DNA of 64,000 nucleotides, taken from NCBI RefSeq assembly GCF_000424065.1, contig NZ_AUJE01000007.1, positions 1 to 64,000 on the forward strand, given 5' to 3'. This document shows, in pieces, positions 7,073-31,678 of the stretch; position 1 is the first letter of the stretch; every line of letters begins with the position of its first letter. A program made the position numbers and the translations under genes. Below the pieces are notes generated by a model, which saw nothing but the letters and a program-made list of their open reading frames with translations, had not been told where the DNA came from and ran no database searches. This DNA is from Selenomonas ruminantium subsp. ruminantium ATCC 12561 (lineage in GTDB: Bacteria > Bacillota > Negativicutes > Selenomonadales > Selenomonadaceae).

Positions 7073-7861
7073 ATGAAAACTGGGGAAGTTTTCGGTAAAG
7101 GGGAACAAGCGATGGAAGCAGAACAGACTACAGAAGATTTATTTGTAGAGGAGATTTACAGTGAATTTGCCAATCTCACGGATGAGGAGATACTGCTGGC
7201 CATCAAGGATAGCAACGATAAGGCAGCACTGGATTACTTGATTAATAAGTATCGTAATTTTGTGCGTGCAAAAGCTCGTTCGTATTTTTTGATTGGCGCA
7301 GACCGTGAGGATATTATTCAGGAAGGTATGATTGGCTTTTACAAGGCGATACGGGATTTTCGCAATGATAAGCTTTCTTCCTTCCGGGCGTTTGCGGAGC
7401 TGTGTGTAACACGGCAGATCATTACGGCCATAAAGACAGCTACCCGGCAAAAACATATACCACTGAATTCCTATATCTCGCTCAACAAGCCCATCTACGA
7501 TGAGGATTCGGACAGAACCCTTTTAGATGTGCTTTCGGGAGCTAAGGTGACTGATCCGGAGGAACTGGTCATCAGTCAGGAAGAATTCGTGGACATCGAA
7601 AAAAAGATGGAGGAAATCCTCTCTGATTTGGAGTGGAAAGTCCTTATGAGCTATCTGGATGGCAAGAGCTATCAGGAGATTGCAGAAGACCTCAATCGCC
7701 ATGTGAAATCCATCGATAACGCTTTGCAGCGTGTAAAGCGGAAGTTGGAGAAGTACATGGAAAAGCGTGGGGACGAATTGGATGTTACAACCATTTATCG
7801 TGGTTTGAGTTCTATCAACCGTCGCTTGCGGGGCGTAGATGAAGTGGACTATTTGCGCTGA
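7073..7861 (+). CDS. sigH: RNA polymerase sigma factor SigH
   Basis: A sigma-70-family factor of the SigH/Spo0H group. The block YLINKYRNFVRAKARSYFL followed by GADREDIIQEGMIGFYKAIRDF is the near-invariant region 2 core, and KSYQEIAEDLNRHVKSIDNA is the region 4 helix-turn-helix. The 262-residue form has an N-terminal extension and about 30 extra C-terminal residues compared with the Bacillus protein (about 218). I use the ATG at 7073 (AAGGGGA eight bases before it); an in-frame ATG at 7112 also has a good site, AAAGGGG. In non-sporulating relatives SigH-type factors often serve stationary-phase or competence genes; the regulon here is unknown. Confidence 0.92.
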   Translation: MKTGEVFGKGEQAMEAEQTTEDLFVEEIYSEFANLTDEEILLAIKDSNDKAALDYLINKYRNFVRAKARSYFLIGADREDIIQEGMIGFYKAIRDFRNDKLSSFRAFAELCVTRQIITAIKTATRQKHIPLNSYISLNKPIYDEDSDRTLLDVLSGAKVTDPEELVISQEEFVDIEKKMEEILSDLEWKVLMSYLDGKSYQEIAEDLNRHVKSIDNALQRVKRKLEKYMEKRGDELDVTTIYRGLSSINRRLRGVDEVDYLR

Positions 7862-26282: not shown

Positions 26283-27206
26283 ATGGAAGTATACAACAAA
26301 CTGATTGATTTGACAAAAAAATATCCCCGCCTGACGGTAGCGCTCGGCATGTTTGATGGCGTGCATATCGGTCATCAGAGCATTATCCGCCGGGCTGTGG
26401 AACTGGCCAAAAAGATTGACGGCAAGTCCGTGGTCTTTACCTTCAGCAATCATCCCTTATCGGTGTTGGCTCCGCAGGCCATGCCGCTGCAGATTGGCAA
26501 CAACATCCTGCGGGAAAAGCGGCTGGAGGAACTCGGCGTGGATATTTTGATTGCCATGCCTTTTACCAAAGAATTTGCCAGCCGCCGTCCTGAGGAATTT
26601 TTGGAAATCCTGCGCATGAATCTGGCGCCTTACTATGTGGTGACCGGCCCTAATTATACCTTTGGCTGCAAGGGCAAGGGAACGCAGCGCATGCTCCTGC
26701 GGGAAGGCAATGCGTATGGTTTTACGGCAGAAATCTGCCCGGCTGTCCTGCGTGACGGCCGGCCGGTAAGCTCTACCCGTGTCCGCAGTTTGCTCGCGGC
26801 GGGGGATTTGCATACGGCCAGCGACTTTCTGGGCTGTCCCTTTACCGTGATGGAACGGGTGATTCATGGGGACGAGCGCGGCAGGCTCCTGGGCTTTCCT
26901 ACGGCTAACTTAGCCATCAGCGAGCAGCGGGTAATGCTGCCTAATGGCGTCTATGCGGTCGGGGTGAAGTTTCAGGGCCATAGTTATAATGGTGTAGCCA
27001 ATATCGGCAATAATCCCACCTTCAAGGGTTGTAACCGCCGGATTGAAGTCAATATCGCAGAGTTCAAGGGTGACCTCTACGATAAACTCATTGCCGTAGA
27101 ATTTATCGAAAAACTGCGGGATGAAGTGAAGTTTGACGGTGTTGAACAGCTCGTGAAGCAGATAAAAAAGGATAAGGAAAAAGCCAAACAGTTTTGGCGC
27201 TACTAA
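26283..27206 (+). CDS. ribF: Bifunctional riboflavin kinase / FAD synthetase
   Basis: RibF turns riboflavin into FMN and then FAD. The 307-residue protein has an N-terminal nucleotidyltransferase domain with GMFDGVHIGHQSII (residues 22-35) and the VSSTRVRSLL motif, then the riboflavin kinase domain with LLGFPTANL and NIGNNPTF. It follows truB as in most Firmicutes and ends the operon at a strong terminator. Its product-pathway partners ribD-ribH lie 13 kb downstream. Confidence 0.96.
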   Translation: MEVYNKLIDLTKKYPRLTVALGMFDGVHIGHQSIIRRAVELAKKIDGKSVVFTFSNHPLSVLAPQAMPLQIGNNILREKRLEELGVDILIAMPFTKEFASRRPEEFLEILRMNLAPYYVVTGPNYTFGCKGKGTQRMLLREGNAYGFTAEICPAVLRDGRPVSSTRVRSLLAAGDLHTASDFLGCPFTVMERVIHGDERGRLLGFPTANLAISEQRVMLPNGVYAVGVKFQGHSYNGVANIGNNPTFKGCNRRIEVNIAEFKGDLYDKLIAVEFIEKLRDEVKFDGVEQLVKQIKKDKEKAKQFWRY

Positions 27207-27210
27207 ATTT

Positions 27211-27242
27211 ATGACCTGTCAAATTTTTGACGGGTCATTTTT
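27211..27242 (+). terminator. Terminator of ribF built from two TGACNNGTCA palindromes
   Basis: ATGACCTGTCAAA pairs with TTTGACGGGTCAT (one G-U), followed by a T tract. Both arms contain an exact palindrome core (27212-27221 and 27228-27237). Confidence 0.85.
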
Positions 27243-27334
27243 CATAGAAAAAAGGAATATTTTATGGAATAGGCGAATAAATGAAAGTGGGATACTTAAG
27301 TTCGATTTCTAAGATGGATAGGGGGATACTGCTC

Positions 27335-29185
27335 ATGGCTGAGGAAAGACGAACATTTGCCGAACTGGATGACAGTACAAAGATTTTTTTAGAGCATATT
27401 TATGGTGCGCAGAAAGGTATGAACCGCCTGACTGCCAATACCATTCAGTATATACGGGAATTAAATAACCGTGAGGAAAGTTTCTTAGGGGCCAGGGCCA
27501 GTGTAAATATGTCAGGGGCCGTGCTGCAGACCCTGTATAAAATAAAGGGCAAAATTCTTCCCTTGAAATTTAATATGGCAGTCAATAAAATGATGGCTGC
27601 CGAGGAGGCTTTCCGGCTTAATTACTGTCCCCTGAAGAATCGTACGGTAGCTGTAGTCTTTACTGAGCGAAGGGAATTGCCATCGATTGTATTTCGCAAT
27701 CTGGAAGATGTGCCGGAGGATGAATTGGATGGAACGCTGCGGAAGATTATGGAAACAGAAATGCGTCAGGAATTTGACCTGAAGCATGACCTGCTGATTC
27801 GTTTTGTGATACTCCGTACGGGGACGGATGAGTATGCCGTTATTGTAACTGCCGTACAGGCCGTATTGAATGACTTGAATATCCACAATCTTTTCCGCTT
27901 GGCGCAAGGGGAGAATGTACAGCCGGCTGCTCATAAAGACAATGGTTTTGTTCTGACGGAAAAGATGGCTGAACCGGTGATGAATTACTGGTCAAAAGTT
28001 TTGAACAATCTTCCGCCGCTGCCTAAAGTTCCCTATATGCGGAAAGGTGGGGAAAAAACGGATTCCCGTCAAAAGAGTTATGTCGTCAGGATTCCCTTGG
28101 ACATTCAGTCCGATTTGCGTAAGCAGGCTAAGGATAATAAGATGATGTTGATGTCCATTTTGCATTCGGCATGGAGTTTTTTGCTGCAGCAGGAAAATGA
28201 GTGTCAGGATGTGGCGTATTGCCTGTTGGTGCCGCGTAACCAGGGAGATGGTGCTGAACCTAGTCTGGTGCCGATGCGTATGCAGATGGAAGGCAGTTCT
28301 ACGGTTCAGGGGATTATCACGAAGGCATTTCAGCAATTTGTCATCTCCAAGTCTTATGCGGCTTTGGCCCGCAGGGATATTGCCGCTTTGGTTGGCAGCT
28401 GGGAAGATAACTTCGATCATTTCTTGAACTTTGTTGATTTTTTCCAGTCCGGGAAAAAATATGTAGAAGTCAGAGGGCAACTAGAAGGCAGCATAGTACT
28501 GCAAAATACAATGGATGTGCGCAATGTCCGTCTGGCTTTGCGCTTTAGCACGGATGAGGGACAGGTTTGGCTGAAGATTGTTTATAATGATAAACTCTTC
28601 ACGGATAGTAATATCCGTATGCTGGCAAATCATTACCTGTTGGTATTGCAGCAGCTGCTGACCGATTGGAATCTGCCTTATGTGGAATTCCTGCCCCGTT
28701 TACAAAATCGTTGGGAAAAAGAGATTCATCAGATTCCGCCGGAGGATTCCCGCAAGGTATTGCAGCATTATATTTCCCGGCTGTCCCTCTTGCAGGAATG
28801 TGACAGAGGTCTTATTCAACTCTTCATGCGGGATGCAAAGCTGAGTACGCGTTTTGAAGGTGATCGTATTGCAGAAAAAGAAATTGAGGAAAATGCAGTC
28901 TTTTTGGTTAAAGGTAAGGTGGCACGCTGTTTGGAAACTGGTGATGGATGGTATAATGCGTTGGATATCCGGGTTGAAACCAGTTGGATCAATGAACTTG
29001 CCCTGCTGCCAGACCGAAAGTGCCACTTGTCGGCGGAAGTGCTTACCGAACAGGTTGTGCTGCTGACGGTTCCGCTGTCTGCGTTGCAGCGTTTAATCGA
29101 AAGCTCACCGCGGCTGGCGCAGAATATCATTCAGCATACGGTAAGGCAGCTGGAAAGCTATCAGAAACTTTGGATGCAGTCATAA
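27335..29185 (+). CDS. Degenerate condensation-domain protein with C-terminal cyclic-nucleotide-binding-like domain
   Basis: A 616-residue protein of unknown role. Residues about 40-480 read as a non-ribosomal-peptide-synthetase-type condensation fold, but the catalytic HHxxxDG position reads VQAVLND (near residue 173), so the second His is Gln and the Asp is Asn; acyl transfer as in peptide synthetases is unlikely. Residues about 488-605 resemble a CRP-type cyclic-nucleotide-binding domain (FLVKGKVARCLETGDG, SWINELALLPD, then a long C-terminal helix) without a DNA-binding domain. I place the start at the ATG at 27335, nine bases after AGGGGG; an in-frame ATG at 27281 is the alternative. No carrier-protein or adenylation domain is nearby. 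It probably forms a unit with the next two genes. Confidence 0.75.
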   Translation: MAEERRTFAELDDSTKIFLEHIYGAQKGMNRLTANTIQYIRELNNREESFLGARASVNMSGAVLQTLYKIKGKILPLKFNMAVNKMMAAEEAFRLNYCPLKNRTVAVVFTERRELPSIVFRNLEDVPEDELDGTLRKIMETEMRQEFDLKHDLLIRFVILRTGTDEYAVIVTAVQAVLNDLNIHNLFRLAQGENVQPAAHKDNGFVLTEKMAEPVMNYWSKVLNNLPPLPKVPYMRKGGEKTDSRQKSYVVRIPLDIQSDLRKQAKDNKMMLMSILHSAWSFLLQQENECQDVAYCLLVPRNQGDGAEPSLVPMRMQMEGSSTVQGIITKAFQQFVISKSYAALARRDIAALVGSWEDNFDHFLNFVDFFQSGKKYVEVRGQLEGSIVLQNTMDVRNVRLALRFSTDEGQVWLKIVYNDKLFTDSNIRMLANHYLLVLQQLLTDWNLPYVEFLPRLQNRWEKEIHQIPPEDSRKVLQHYISRLSLLQECDRGLIQLFMRDAKLSTRFEGDRIAEKEIEENAVFLVKGKVARCLETGDGWYNALDIRVETSWINELALLPDRKCHLSAEVLTEQVVLLTVPLSALQRLIESSPRLAQNIIQHTVRQLESYQKLWMQS

Positions 29186-29261
29186 ATAAAAAAATTGCAG
29201 GAAAATGCGAAAAAAAAGCGAATAAATATTTTATGATGATAAATGAAAGGGGTTACCTGTT

Positions 29262-29561
29262 ATGGAGATTAAAAAAGAACAAAATGGTTCGGTGTTGAAG
29301 CTTGCGTTGGTTGGCCGTCTGGATGCGGTTACGGCTCCCGAACTGGATAAAGTTGTGCAGAATGAACTGACCGGTGTTACGGATTTGACTTTTGATTTCA
29401 GTGAACTGGTCTATGTGGCATCTGCCGGCCTGCGTGTGCTGCTGCTGGCCCAGAAACGGATGAAGAAACAAGGTTCGATGAAGCTTACCCATGTCAACAG
29501 CGATGTAAAAGATGTATTGGAAATGACAGGCTTTATTGATTTCCTCACCATTGAAGAATAA
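29262..29561 (+). CDS. STAS-domain anti-sigma factor antagonist-like protein
   Basis: A 99-residue single STAS domain of the SpoIIAA/RsbV type. The core LVGRLDAVTAPELDKV is followed by LTFDFSELVYVASAGLRVLL, where the Ser of ASAGL sits at the site phosphorylated in partner-switching antagonists. AAAGGGG precedes the ATG. It is 76 bp after the condensation-domain gene and 19 bp before the HATPase-like gene. A classical pairing would be with a serine-kinase anti-sigma factor; the likely partner here is the next gene. Confidence 0.9.
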   Translation: MEIKKEQNGSVLKLALVGRLDAVTAPELDKVVQNELTGVTDLTFDFSELVYVASAGLRVLLLAQKRMKKQGSMKLTHVNSDVKDVLEMTGFIDFLTIEE

Positions 29562-29580
29562 CAGGGATTGGGGGGCTTAC

Positions 29581-30201
29581 ATGAGAACCGCAAAAATCAA
29601 GGTAAACAGTCTCGGCTATGGCATGGAGAAGGCTTTGGACGAGGTGGAATCCTTCAGCTGCGGAATGGGCTTTGGCGAGCGCAGTGCCCGTCGTGCCCGT
29701 CTGTTGGCCGAAGAAACCATGAGCATGGTACGGGCTATTGTGGAGGATTTCTCCGCAGATTTTTGGATGGAAGGCTCGCCGGATGGCAACTGCGAATTGC
29801 ACCTTTTGGCTGATGCCATGATGAATTATGAAAAAAAGCAGGAGCTTATTGATACTTCTTCCCAAAAGAGAAATGAAGCTTCTGTAGGTATCATGGGCAA
29901 GATAAAGGATTTCATTGAAGACAGCCTTTATAACATGAAAGATGGCGCAATGGTATCGACCGGTGATATGCATTGCATGAGCATGGGCGGTGTCGGGATG
30001 GCAGCGGATGCTTATATGTGGTCATTGCAGCAATATCGGTATGATGTGGAAAAGAAAGCCGATGAAGATACCGAAATGGAAGAGGCCTTAGATGAATTGG
30101 AAAAATCCATCGTGGCGAACATTGCCGATGATATACAGGTCTCGGTAGAGGGAAATCACATTGAAATGATTATCCGCAAGAAATTTAACACAACTGAATA
30201 A
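29581..30201 (+). CDS. HATPase-like protein, possible partner of the STAS protein
   Basis: A 206-residue protein. LLAEETMSMVRAIVEDF (about residues 41-57) resembles the N-box of the GHKL ATPase fold found in anti-sigma kinases such as SpoIIAB and RsbW. A later Gly/Met-rich segment (GDMHCMSMGGVGMAADAYMW) could be the nucleotide-lid region but does not match a standard G-box, and the C-terminal part ends in VEGNHIEMIIRKKF, a typical last strand of this fold. A middle Lys/Glu-rich insertion (about 80-120) is atypical. The ATG at 29581 follows GGGGGG. I infer a role as kinase or ligand of the STAS protein. Confidence 0.65.
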   Translation: MRTAKIKVNSLGYGMEKALDEVESFSCGMGFGERSARRARLLAEETMSMVRAIVEDFSADFWMEGSPDGNCELHLLADAMMNYEKKQELIDTSSQKRNEASVGIMGKIKDFIEDSLYNMKDGAMVSTGDMHCMSMGGVGMAADAYMWSLQQYRYDVEKKADEDTEMEEALDELEKSIVANIADDIQVSVEGNHIEMIIRKKFNTTE

Positions 30202-30236: not shown

Positions 30237-30265
30237 TTGACATTTTGGGAAAAATAGGATAAAAT
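30237..30265 (+). promoter_or_regulatory. Promoter of the SAM riboswitch-metK unit
   Basis: Consensus TTGACA (30237-30242), a 17-bp spacer and TAAAAT (30260-30265). Confidence 0.85.
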
Positions 30266-30290: not shown

Positions 30291-30428
30291 AACTCATCCA
30301 GAGCAGTGGAGGGATAGGCCCAATGAAGCTGCGGCAACCATCGCAATTGCGAAACGGTGCCAATTCCTTTAGGCGAAGCCTATAAGATGAGAGTGAAGAT
30401 AAAAGGCTCTCATTTATGAGAGTCTTTT
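30291..30428 (+). ncRNA. SAM-I (S-box) riboswitch with terminator
   Basis: The aptamer shows the S-box pattern: P1 CTCATC/GATGAG (30293-30298 with 30386-30391), GAGCAGTGGAGGGA, GGCCCAATGAAGC and CGGCAACC. Downstream, CTCTCAT (30407-30413) pairs with ATGAGAG (30416-30422) and is followed by TCTTTT, a terminator. The same CTCTCAT can pair with ATGAGAG at 30387-30393 in the 3' side of P1, giving the antiterminator. Binding of SAM should therefore stop transcription of metK. Confidence 0.95.
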
Positions 30429-30487: not shown

Positions 30488-31678
30488 ATGAGCAAGAAAC
30501 GTATGCTGTTTACGTCGGAATCGGTTACGGAAGGTCATCCGGATAAAATGGCTGACCAGATTTCCGACAGCATCTTAGATGCCATCATCGCCCAGGACCC
30601 GCAGGGCCGTGTGGCTTGTGAAACGTTGGTAACGACCGGTCAGGTACATGTGGTTGGTGAAATCTCCACGACCTGCTATGTGGATATTCCGAAAATCATT
30701 CGCAGCACGGTAGAAGAAATCGGCTACACCGATGCCGCTTACGGTTTTGACTGTAAGACCTGCGGTATTTTGGTATCATTGGATGAACAGTCCCCGGATA
30801 TCGCTCAGGGGGTAAATCAGGCACTTGAAGCCCGCGAAGGCAAGCTTGATGAAGCAGATGCAGTGGGTGCTGGTGACCAGGGCATGATGTTTGGTTATGC
30901 CACCAACGAGACGCCGGAATTCATGCCGCTGCCGATTGCGCTGGCGCAGAGACTGGCACGCCGTCTGACGGAAGTCCGCAAGAATGGCACGCTCGGATAC
31001 CTTCGTCCGGACGGCAAGACGCAGGTTACCATTGTCTATGAGGATGGCAAACCGGTGGCTGTGGATACCATTGTTATCTCTACCCAGCATGATGAAGATG
31101 TAACGCTGGAACAGATTCGCAAGGACCTCATTGAGCATGTGATCAAGCCGGTTGTACCTGCTGACCTGCTCAAGGAAGAAACCCGTATCTTCGTCAATCC
31201 GACGGGCAAGTTCGTCATCGGCGGCCCGCAGGGTGACTCCGGTCTTACGGGCCGTAAAATCATCGTTGACACCTATGGCGGCTGGGCTCGTCATGGCGGC
31301 GGTGCTTTCTCCGGCAAAGACCCCACGAAGGTTGACCGTAGTGCCGCTTATGCTGCCCGCTATGTGGCCAAGAATATCGTAGCGGCAGGTTTGGCCGACA
31401 AGTGCGAAATCCAGCTGGCGTATGCTATCGGTGTAGCGTACCCGGTTTCCGTCATGGTGGATACGTTTGGCACCAACAAAGTGGCCGAAGAAAAAATCGA
31501 AGAACTGGTTGAAAAGCATTTCGACCTGCGCCCGGCTGGCATCATCAAGATGCTTGACTTGCGCCGTCCGATTTATAAGCAGACGGCTGCTTATGGCCAT
31601 TTTGGCCGTACCGATGTGGACCTGCCCTGGGAACACACGGACAAGGCAGATGTGCTCAAAAAAGAAGCCGGTCTGTAA
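30488..31678 (+). CDS. metK: S-adenosylmethionine synthase
   Basis: MetK makes S-adenosylmethionine from methionine and ATP. The 396-residue protein has [20 protein letters not shown] at the N-terminus, the [19 protein letters not shown]-binding motif, and [18 protein letters not shown] near residue 275. Length is normal. TAAGGAGG precedes the ATG. It is the only gene between its SAM-I riboswitch and a strong terminator, so it is feedback-controlled by its own product. Confidence 0.98.

Follow-up and report, generated by a model that had tools for sequence, protein, structure and literature searches.

Three genes of Selenomonas ruminantium may be half of a split, sigma-factor-independent partner-switching module built around a pseudo-condensation protein and an exporter

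Partner switches are best known for releasing sigma factors. Here we describe three plus-strand genes at 27335-30201 of a 64,000-nucleotide stretch of Selenomonas ruminantium subsp. ruminantium ATCC 12561 (the window: bases 1-64000 of contig C7, NZ_AUJE01000007.1, in the genome that we call G000), correctly delimited in a preliminary description of this DNA. The trio lies between a ribF-type gene (26283-27206) and metK (30488-31678), both named from their sequences, and encodes a condensation-type domain joined to a CRP-type domain (gene 1, C-cNMP protein), a STAS antagonist (gene 2) and a HAT-like protein (gene 3). We propose that the trio is half of a split partner-switching module that works independently of sigma factors and targets a (pseudo)condensation protein together with an exporter, a proposal to which we give an even chance.

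The remaining parts of the module become apparent when the window's genome is compared with those of its congeners. In G003 and G017, a single same-strand row holds a MATE transporter carrying a HATPase part (MATE-HATPase), a SpoIIE phosphatase with dCache and HAMP domains (domains read from the G003 proteins), an RsbW kinase, the C-cNMP protein, the STAS protein and the HAT-like protein. The window's genome carries the missing parts further downstream, at C7:107252-114611 (L123), the first of them 77 kb from the trio. They are a MATE protein whose end is of the HATPase type (PF13581, 26.9 bits for a cut-off of 27.4), a racemase-like protein (best model the histidine racemase CntK, E 7e-22, under its cut-off), two SpoIIE proteins with sensor parts (dCache and HAMP) and an RsbW. 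One of the two SpoIIE proteins, which provide the PP2C phosphatase, is also recognised by Pfam, and the best NCBIfam model for one of them is SiaA (84 bits for a cut-off of 700, E 9e-24). The RsbW, at 114186-114611, has intact N, G1 and G2 boxes (EExxxN, DxGxP, GGLG), as expected of a kinase; these boxes are invariant in all eight aligned RsbW proteins, and EExxxN is present in 17 of 18. It would be the cognate kinase of the trio's STAS protein. The preliminary description had seen the core of a partner switch in the trio itself, with no phosphatase adjacent. The parts are indeed present and no phosphatase adjoins, but the kinase and phosphatases lie 77-85 kb away on the same contig.

Two chromosomal sites accommodate these genes. 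Site A is the interval between ribF and metK, and site B adjoins genes for a small protein, a Nudix protein and ScpA, with an acyltransferase on the other side where this could be seen. The window's genome has C-cNMP, STAS and HAT-like genes at site A and MATE-HATPase, racemase-like, SpoIIE, SpoIIE and RsbW genes at site B. G010 and G011 have MATE-HATPase, racemase-like, SpoIIE-RsbW, STAS and HAT-like genes at site A and C-cNMP at site B; in these two genomes (L128 and L127) phosphatase and kinase are fused in a single 863-residue protein. Site B holds STAS and HAT-like genes in G013, and all six genes in G003 and G017. Since a partial metK occurs about 6.6 kb past the module in G003, the two sites may be close together in that genome. 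The same set of genes is thus distributed differently over two sites, which is good evidence that the trio and the distant genes form one unit, of which the trio is one half.

We next consider the trio proteins. Gene 1 occupies an open reading frame at 27281-29185; its likeliest start is the ATG at 27335, which follows a Shine-Dalgarno-like AGGGGG stretch and corresponds to the beginning of the homologue L004, an alternative ATG lying upstream at 27281. The closest named matches are Selenomonas ruminantium assemblies, four at 85-91% identity and one at 69%. Pfam detects a condensation domain (PF00668, 81.7 bits for a cut-off of 30.6, E 6e-23), and a profile built from 22 relatives finds solved condensation domains of nonribosomal peptide synthetases (NRPS) with E values down to 2.9e-57 (bacitracin synthase 3), the match to the condensation superfamily fold being significant across the whole domain. 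The domain spans 27503-28678, residues 75-466 of the 634-residue reading, and over these residues the profile matches the condensation domains of the surfactin, tyrocidine and bacitracin synthetases. Unlike these, the family stands alone, is fused to a CRP-type domain and has replaced the catalytic His in 64 of 66 members. In the profile alignment to bacitracin synthase, the two His of HHxxxDG correspond to V192-Q193, so that a Gln codon (27857-27859) takes the place of the second, catalytic His and gene 1 lacks the catalytic motif. Across the 66 members this column holds His twice, Gln 45 times and another residue 19 times; the first His is lost in all 66. The preliminary description of a condensation fold deprived of its catalytic His was therefore correct.

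The same description had added a CRP-like domain lacking a DNA-binding part, and wrote of a cyclic-nucleotide-like sensor. The domain itself was confirmed (28748-29155): PF00027 (cNMP_binding) stays under its cut-off (22.5 bits for 27.5, E 1.1e-4), whereas the family profile reaches CRP-type domains with E values between 6e-10 and about 1e-6. CRP and related domains are also recovered with a profile made from the C-terminal part only, and the protein terminates directly after this domain, with no DNA-binding domain. Its phosphate-binding cassette (INELALLPDRKCHLSAEV) is eroded. Among 63 family members the cassette Gly has become Asn in 59, the Glu is retained in 45, and no member has Arg in the aligned Arg column, adjacent columns holding Arg in 17 and 12 of them; the G-E ... 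R cassette of CRP is thus absent from the family. We therefore rejected a role as cyclic nucleotide sensor as unlikely. With both HHxxxDG and the cassette gone, the gene 1 protein should, from its sequence, be a pseudo-enzyme, and the CRP-type domain attached to it is not expected to bind cyclic nucleotides in the usual manner. A link of the cNMP part to encapsulins was also discarded (NCBIfam E 4e-4, far under the cut-off). The structure predicted for the C-cNMP protein from five sequences was unusable (pLDDT, the per-residue confidence, of 33; no match better than E 0.028, CRP-type proteins first).

Gene 2 (29262-29561) scores above the cut-offs of PF01740, PF13466 and TIGR00377 and is, as had been proposed, a STAS antagonist. 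In its conserved loop, YVASAGL, S54 (codon 29421-29423) aligns with the first loop Ser of SpoIIAA, RsbV and 4hyl and is the predicted phosphoserine; a review gives this loop Ser as the phosphorylation site of antagonists (PMC8256260). The pattern [ASD]S[AST]G is found in 35 of the 41 STAS proteins of the examined loci.

Gene 3 (29581-30201), earlier called GHKL-like, has no usable match in Pfam, NCBIfam or PDB sequences. A low-confidence model from six near sequences (pLDDT 41, pTM, the overall fold score, 0.36) returned in Foldseek RsbW, SpoIIAB or UsfX in all of the best 13 rows (E 5e-3 to 0.22). Structural alignment of this model placed ten RsbW/SpoIIAB/UsfX entries at Z 10.1-11.8 and SiaB at 8.5; entries beyond the anti-sigma kinases and SiaB begin at Z 5.6, and their absence higher up carries little weight. 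The GHKL-like assignment is thus tentative, coming from the low-confidence model and not from the sequence searches. In a shuffling comparison with RsbW, the HAT-like protein gave z 3.1 over its whole length; its N-terminal part gave 3.2 and its C-terminal part 0.2, values that by themselves carry too little weight. EETMSM replaces the EExxxN of the N box, with E44 and E45 in place and M49 at the position of the Mg-binding Asn. This Asn is missing from all 13 aligned HAT-like members, and no DxGxP (G1) motif was seen in their alignment. Because the Mg-binding Asn is absent, gene 3 is probably, if the modelled fold is right, a pseudokinase of the RsbW/SpoIIAB fold, and probably not the kinase of the switch. 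A match to talin was rejected as weak. Twelve genomes in the window's genus carry a HAT-like gene, and in all of them it adjoins a STAS gene.

How far the C-cNMP protein travels with switch genes was surveyed across the class to which the window's genome belongs. At E 1e-15, matches to the C-cNMP profile occur in 124 of 380 genomes, ordinary NRPS included. We read 69 places in six frames (L144 and L169 included): the window, L001-L005, 20 regions from a first family search (its hits minus a 60-residue fragment and NRPS-type hits) and 40 chosen across genera. This sample is non-random; L001-L005 are close relatives of the window, L005 is frameshifted, and L177 has no CRP-type part. STAS was found within 8 kb of C-cNMP at 26 places, SpoIIE at 18, RsbW at 16, MATE at 11 and HAT-like at 9, every one of these genes being on the C-cNMP strand and none on the opposite strand. 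By our own estimate, given that the window's genome of 3.4 Mb has six STAS matches, chance would bring STAS this close in about 2% of cases. The STAS-linked places span nine genus codes, all in the window's family. The exact trio occurs at 9 of the 69 places and only inside the genus; in other genera C-cNMP is found with STAS, often together with RsbW and SpoIIE, and the third gene is not nearby. In genus g39, for example, the row is MATE, a PatB-type pyridoxal phosphate-dependent enzyme, RsbW, STAS, SpoIIE and C-cNMP (MATE and PatB of L149 identified by models). On a tree of 63 C-cNMP proteins (25 linked to STAS or RsbW, 27 unlinked, 11 undecided), the linkage takes seven changes to explain, and starred branches force five of these. 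It is present on deep branches, such as those of G272, G252 and G200.

Some further loci merit a separate mention. In L005 (G016, contig C62) a frameshift splits the C-cNMP gene into two overlapping frames, with STAS and HAT-like genes intact. At positions 1-10343 of L176 (G304), an NRPS, a 314-residue protein with a carrier-like start (by eye) and a C-cNMP relative stand in a row, a possible trace of an NRPS origin of the family. In G051 (L136), a giant NRPS ends in a NAD_binding_4 reductase-type domain followed by a CRP-type domain (C1:193789-194085, PF00027 E 6e-12), and a gene resembling an MFS transporter adjoins it. Plasmid-borne spread was rejected: nine plasmid records match, all at less than 60% identity, and of the five matches listed, at 21-23%, three carry an adenylation or NRPS annotation, whether at the matching place or elsewhere.

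The same switch parts also occur with condensation proteins that have kept their catalytic His. The window's genome encodes two fusions of a STAS to a condensation domain (STAS-C fusions), both with this His. One stands at C2:148.7-158.3 kb (L130), in a row of SpoIIE, STAS, STAS-C fusion, an NRPS module of adenylation, carrier and condensation domains (A-T-C) and a MATE-HATPase; the proteins of this row retain catalytic and carrier residues, and PF13581 is over its cut-off in the MATE protein. The other, at C8:113.1-116.4 kb (L135), is followed by MATE, with no SpoIIE or NRPS adjoining. Across the class, full-length STAS-C fusions were found at 38 places, in 35 of the 380 genomes; seven of these 35 genomes belong to a second family, and two of the 38 fusions contain an internal stop. 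Among 398 genomes of the phylum, four have full-length fusions, all in the window's family, and one (G619) has a match to the condensation part only. A MATE gene belongs to the row at 18 of 20 STAS-C or related loci, being missing from L194 and L196 (both of genus g13); at L179, L182 and L189, each STAS-condensation gene is found with STAS and the MATE gene comes after.

Motifs in these sister modules were counted in the proteins recovered by the open-reading-frame caller. The His of HxxxDG is kept in 22 of 22 condensation proteins, with or without a STAS part, and the A-T(-C) proteins keep GGDSL in 9 of 9 and HxxxDG in 8 of 9. The EExxxN of the MATE HATPase has lost its Asn in 11 of the 12 sister-module proteins that could be read (it is kept in L192, and eight were unreadable). 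Among the MATE proteins of the C-cNMP module, G003, G017, G010 and G011 keep EExxxN, and G000, G008 and G005 have lost the Asn.

Beyond the class, SpoIIE is the neighbour of five MATE proteins whose match extends over the HATPase part (G394, G511, G687 and two loci of G619). PF13581, compared in G394, G687 and the two G619 loci, exceeds its cut-off in G687 alone; it matches weakly in G394 and at one G619 locus, and is absent from the other G619 locus. STAS is present in G394, G511 and G687, and was not found at the two G619 loci. An AdoHcyase-like protein belongs to the row of G687, and ATP-grasp and GH3 proteins to one row of G619. As the enzymes at these loci differ, the core may consist of the pump-HATPase, the phosphatase and the antagonist, with varying enzymes. 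At L222 and L223 (G394 and G511), the STAS, MATE, SpoIIE row also includes a 479-residue protein, the L222 copy of which has no Pfam match. Contig C35 of the window's genome (L131:4554-8763) has a row of STAS, a sodium:dicarboxylate (SDF) symporter and SpoIIE; the symporter carries a 150-residue N-terminal extension, HATPase-like by eye, so that a different transporter family shows the same arrangement.

From gene content, conservation and motifs we infer how such a module could work, each binding and phosphorylation step and the client role included. An outside ligand sensed by the dCache domains would set the activity of the SpoIIE phosphatase. RsbW would phosphorylate STAS on Ser54 and SpoIIE would remove the phosphate, as the conserved residues suggest. 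RsbW, freed from STAS or captured by it, would then bind or release the C-cNMP protein in place of a sigma factor, while the HAT-like pseudokinase and the transporter HATPase would serve as non-phosphorylating docks for STAS. The C-cNMP protein, as an inactive descendant of a synthetase domain, would have been retained as a binding partner, and the switch would gate an apparatus for making or exporting small molecules instead of transcription. We take C-cNMP as the alternating partner of RsbW because no sigma factor of the B/F/G type is found over the cut-off, and because C-cNMP and the pump travel with the kinase and the antagonist. Indeed, the sigma-B/F/G model TIGR02980 gave no match over its cut-off in 16 genomes (completeness 90% or more in 13), and hence no client of sigma-B/F/G type, against one of 14 genomes in a control set. 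A broader view, which we put forward only tentatively, is that STAS-HATPase pairs form a dock, set by phosphorylation, that couples a synthetase to its exporter without transcription. STAS would sit on or beside the condensation protein, the HATPase on the MATE pump would be its receptor, and a ligand-sensing SpoIIE would set the dock; the trio would be the dead-condensation branch, where the condensation domain itself has become the regulated partner.

Several observations weigh against the proposal of a split module with C-cNMP and the pump as clients. The low confidence of the HAT-like model is one, and profile comparison of the HAT-like family with RsbW (9, then 13 members) was not significant (hhalign P 0.09 and 0.024). 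Ten further HAT-like regions have STAS directly beside in only two (L209, L211), L211 being the only such case outside the window's genus; L210 and L217 have STAS on the same strand at about 6 kb (the L217 copy broken into two frames), L213 has it 2.8 kb off on the opposite strand, and none was found in L208, L212, L214, L215 or L216. On the transporter side, PF13581 falls slightly short of its cut-off in the C7 MATE protein, and the HATPase-type end of the C8 MATE protein, without a PF13581 match, was seen by comparison with relatives. The C-cNMP family can also exist without an adjacent switch, since 27 of 52 readable members lack both STAS and RsbW at distances up to 8 kb; this is true of 13 of the 14 decided tree proteins of genus g13 and of a second C-cNMP protein of the window's genome, on contig C36, which is found beside a GNAT-like protein and, by eye, LysR-type and molybdopterin oxidoreductase genes. 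Finally, sigma-type matches under the cut-off, any of which could be the client, occur in all 16 genomes, several in each and one of them at 7220-7399 of the window.

These last matches bear on the most conventional explanation, in which a sigma factor from another locus (one of about 260 residues, say, or a smaller one) is sequestered by RsbW and C-cNMP is a regulated or modulating protein of an ordinary transcriptional switch. RsbW, STAS and SpoIIE are all canonical in their key residues or domains, and a Pseudomonas antagonist is described in a review as working via FlgM and sigma-28 (PMC8256260). The TIGR02980 result in the 16 genomes speaks against it, as does the neighbourhood: read by eye, with no model search there, the module forms have no recognised sigma gene beside them, the exception being a small-sigma-like protein of 173 residues near L222/L223, outside the class. 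We regard this explanation as unlikely. Similarly improbable, in our judgement, is that C-cNMP acts upstream as a sensor, its dead condensation domain binding an aminoacyl or peptidyl metabolite, or its CRP-like domain some other ligand, and feeding STAS and RsbW. A pseudo-enzyme with a CRP-type fold is plausible as a ligand sensor, the module also has racemase-like or PatB-type enzymes and MATE, and the condensation profile persists in proteins with 19-91% identity to that of the window; yet SpoIIE already carries a sensor part (dCache, HAMP), the cNMP cassette is eroded, and any ligand would be hypothetical.

If C-cNMP had nothing to do with the switch and merely hitchhiked in a shared operon in part of its family, the many unlinked members would be readily understood, and so would its weaker conservation between congeners (41-49% identity, versus 85-87% for STAS, 59% in G001). 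However, the linkage at 26 of 69 places, on the same strand and in nine genera, the minimum of five changes that the tree demands, the linked deep branches and the fusion of STAS to condensation domains with catalytic His in the sister modules together make hitchhiking very unlikely.

The proposed use of a partner switch on an enzyme has a precedent in the SiaABCD system of Pseudomonas aeruginosa, by analogy of gene content. There the phosphorylation state of SiaC is controlled by SiaA and SiaB (PMC7647112), and unphosphorylated SiaC binds SiaD and drives the active dimer (PMC8457831), so that a PP2C phosphatase, a kinase and an antagonist-like protein act there on an enzyme client and not on a sigma factor. 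One SpoIIE of L123 has SiaA as its best model, far below the cut-off, and SiaB is among the structures to which the low-confidence HAT-like model aligns. Unlike in the module described here, the Sia client is a diguanylate cyclase (PMC8457831), and no cyclase was recognised beside the Selenomonas module forms; neither a condensation domain nor a transporter fusion is mentioned for Sia in the parts of these papers that we consulted. With RsbV/RsbW/sigma-B and SpoIIAA/SpoIIAB/sigma-F the module shares a STAS protein with a phosphorylatable Ser, an RsbW-type kinase and a PP2C phosphatase; it differs by the lack of a sigma-B/F/G factor over the cut-off and by the addition of a pseudo-condensation protein, a MATE-HATPase and a pseudokinase to the operon.

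The neighbourhood of such genes with peptide synthetases has already been published for one genome. In Methanobrevibacter ruminantium M1, NRPS or acyltransferase genes were reported in 2010 to adjoin genes for serine phosphatases, for an anti-sigma factor antagonist and for MatE (mru0066-0071, mru0512-0516), along with a third cluster that includes a kinase; the authors assigned these genes to sensing, to the regulation of NRPS expression and to export (PMC2812497). Compared by description, the consulted parts of that paper mention no STAS-condensation fusion, MATE-HATPase fusion or C-cNMP protein. In a paper on rumen gene clusters (PMC8241843), the differentially expressed Selenomonas clusters named in the text available to us are sactipeptides, and STAS is absent from that text. 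Our search of PubMed Central (PMC) returned no paper joining a condensation domain to a STAS or cNMP domain, MATE to SpoIIE, STAS and HATPase, or, in most searches on that pair, partner switching to NRPS; most papers mentioning STAS, condensation domain and NRPS together were, judged by their titles, on fungal, engineering or other topics. The texts consulted thus gave no account of the fusions, of a pseudo-condensation client, of the split module or of a sigma-independent reading.

Control of this kind over the making and export of small molecules has hardly been examined so far. The same switch parts recur beside condensation proteins, on exporters and fused to condensation domains with catalytic His, in genomes without a sigma-B/F/G factor over the cut-off. 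Should the client prove to be a pump or a protein derived from a synthetase, partner switching would be a post-translational control of small-molecule making or export in gut and rumen anaerobes, and unread metabolite cassettes could be found through MATE-HATPase and STAS-condensation fusions.

The trio may be its own transcription unit, because a terminator-like hairpin (27211-27238, plus strand, consensus scan) stands between the ribF-type gene and gene 1, and a riboswitch and a promoter-like site (30237-30265) precede metK. The hairpin is a weak sign, since the scan found five hairpins in the region against 3.5 expected from shuffling; the promoter scan found no site immediately upstream of the trio. 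The riboswitch, of the S-adenosylmethionine (SAM) type, lies at 30291-30393 and scores 87.8 bits (gathering threshold 44.4).

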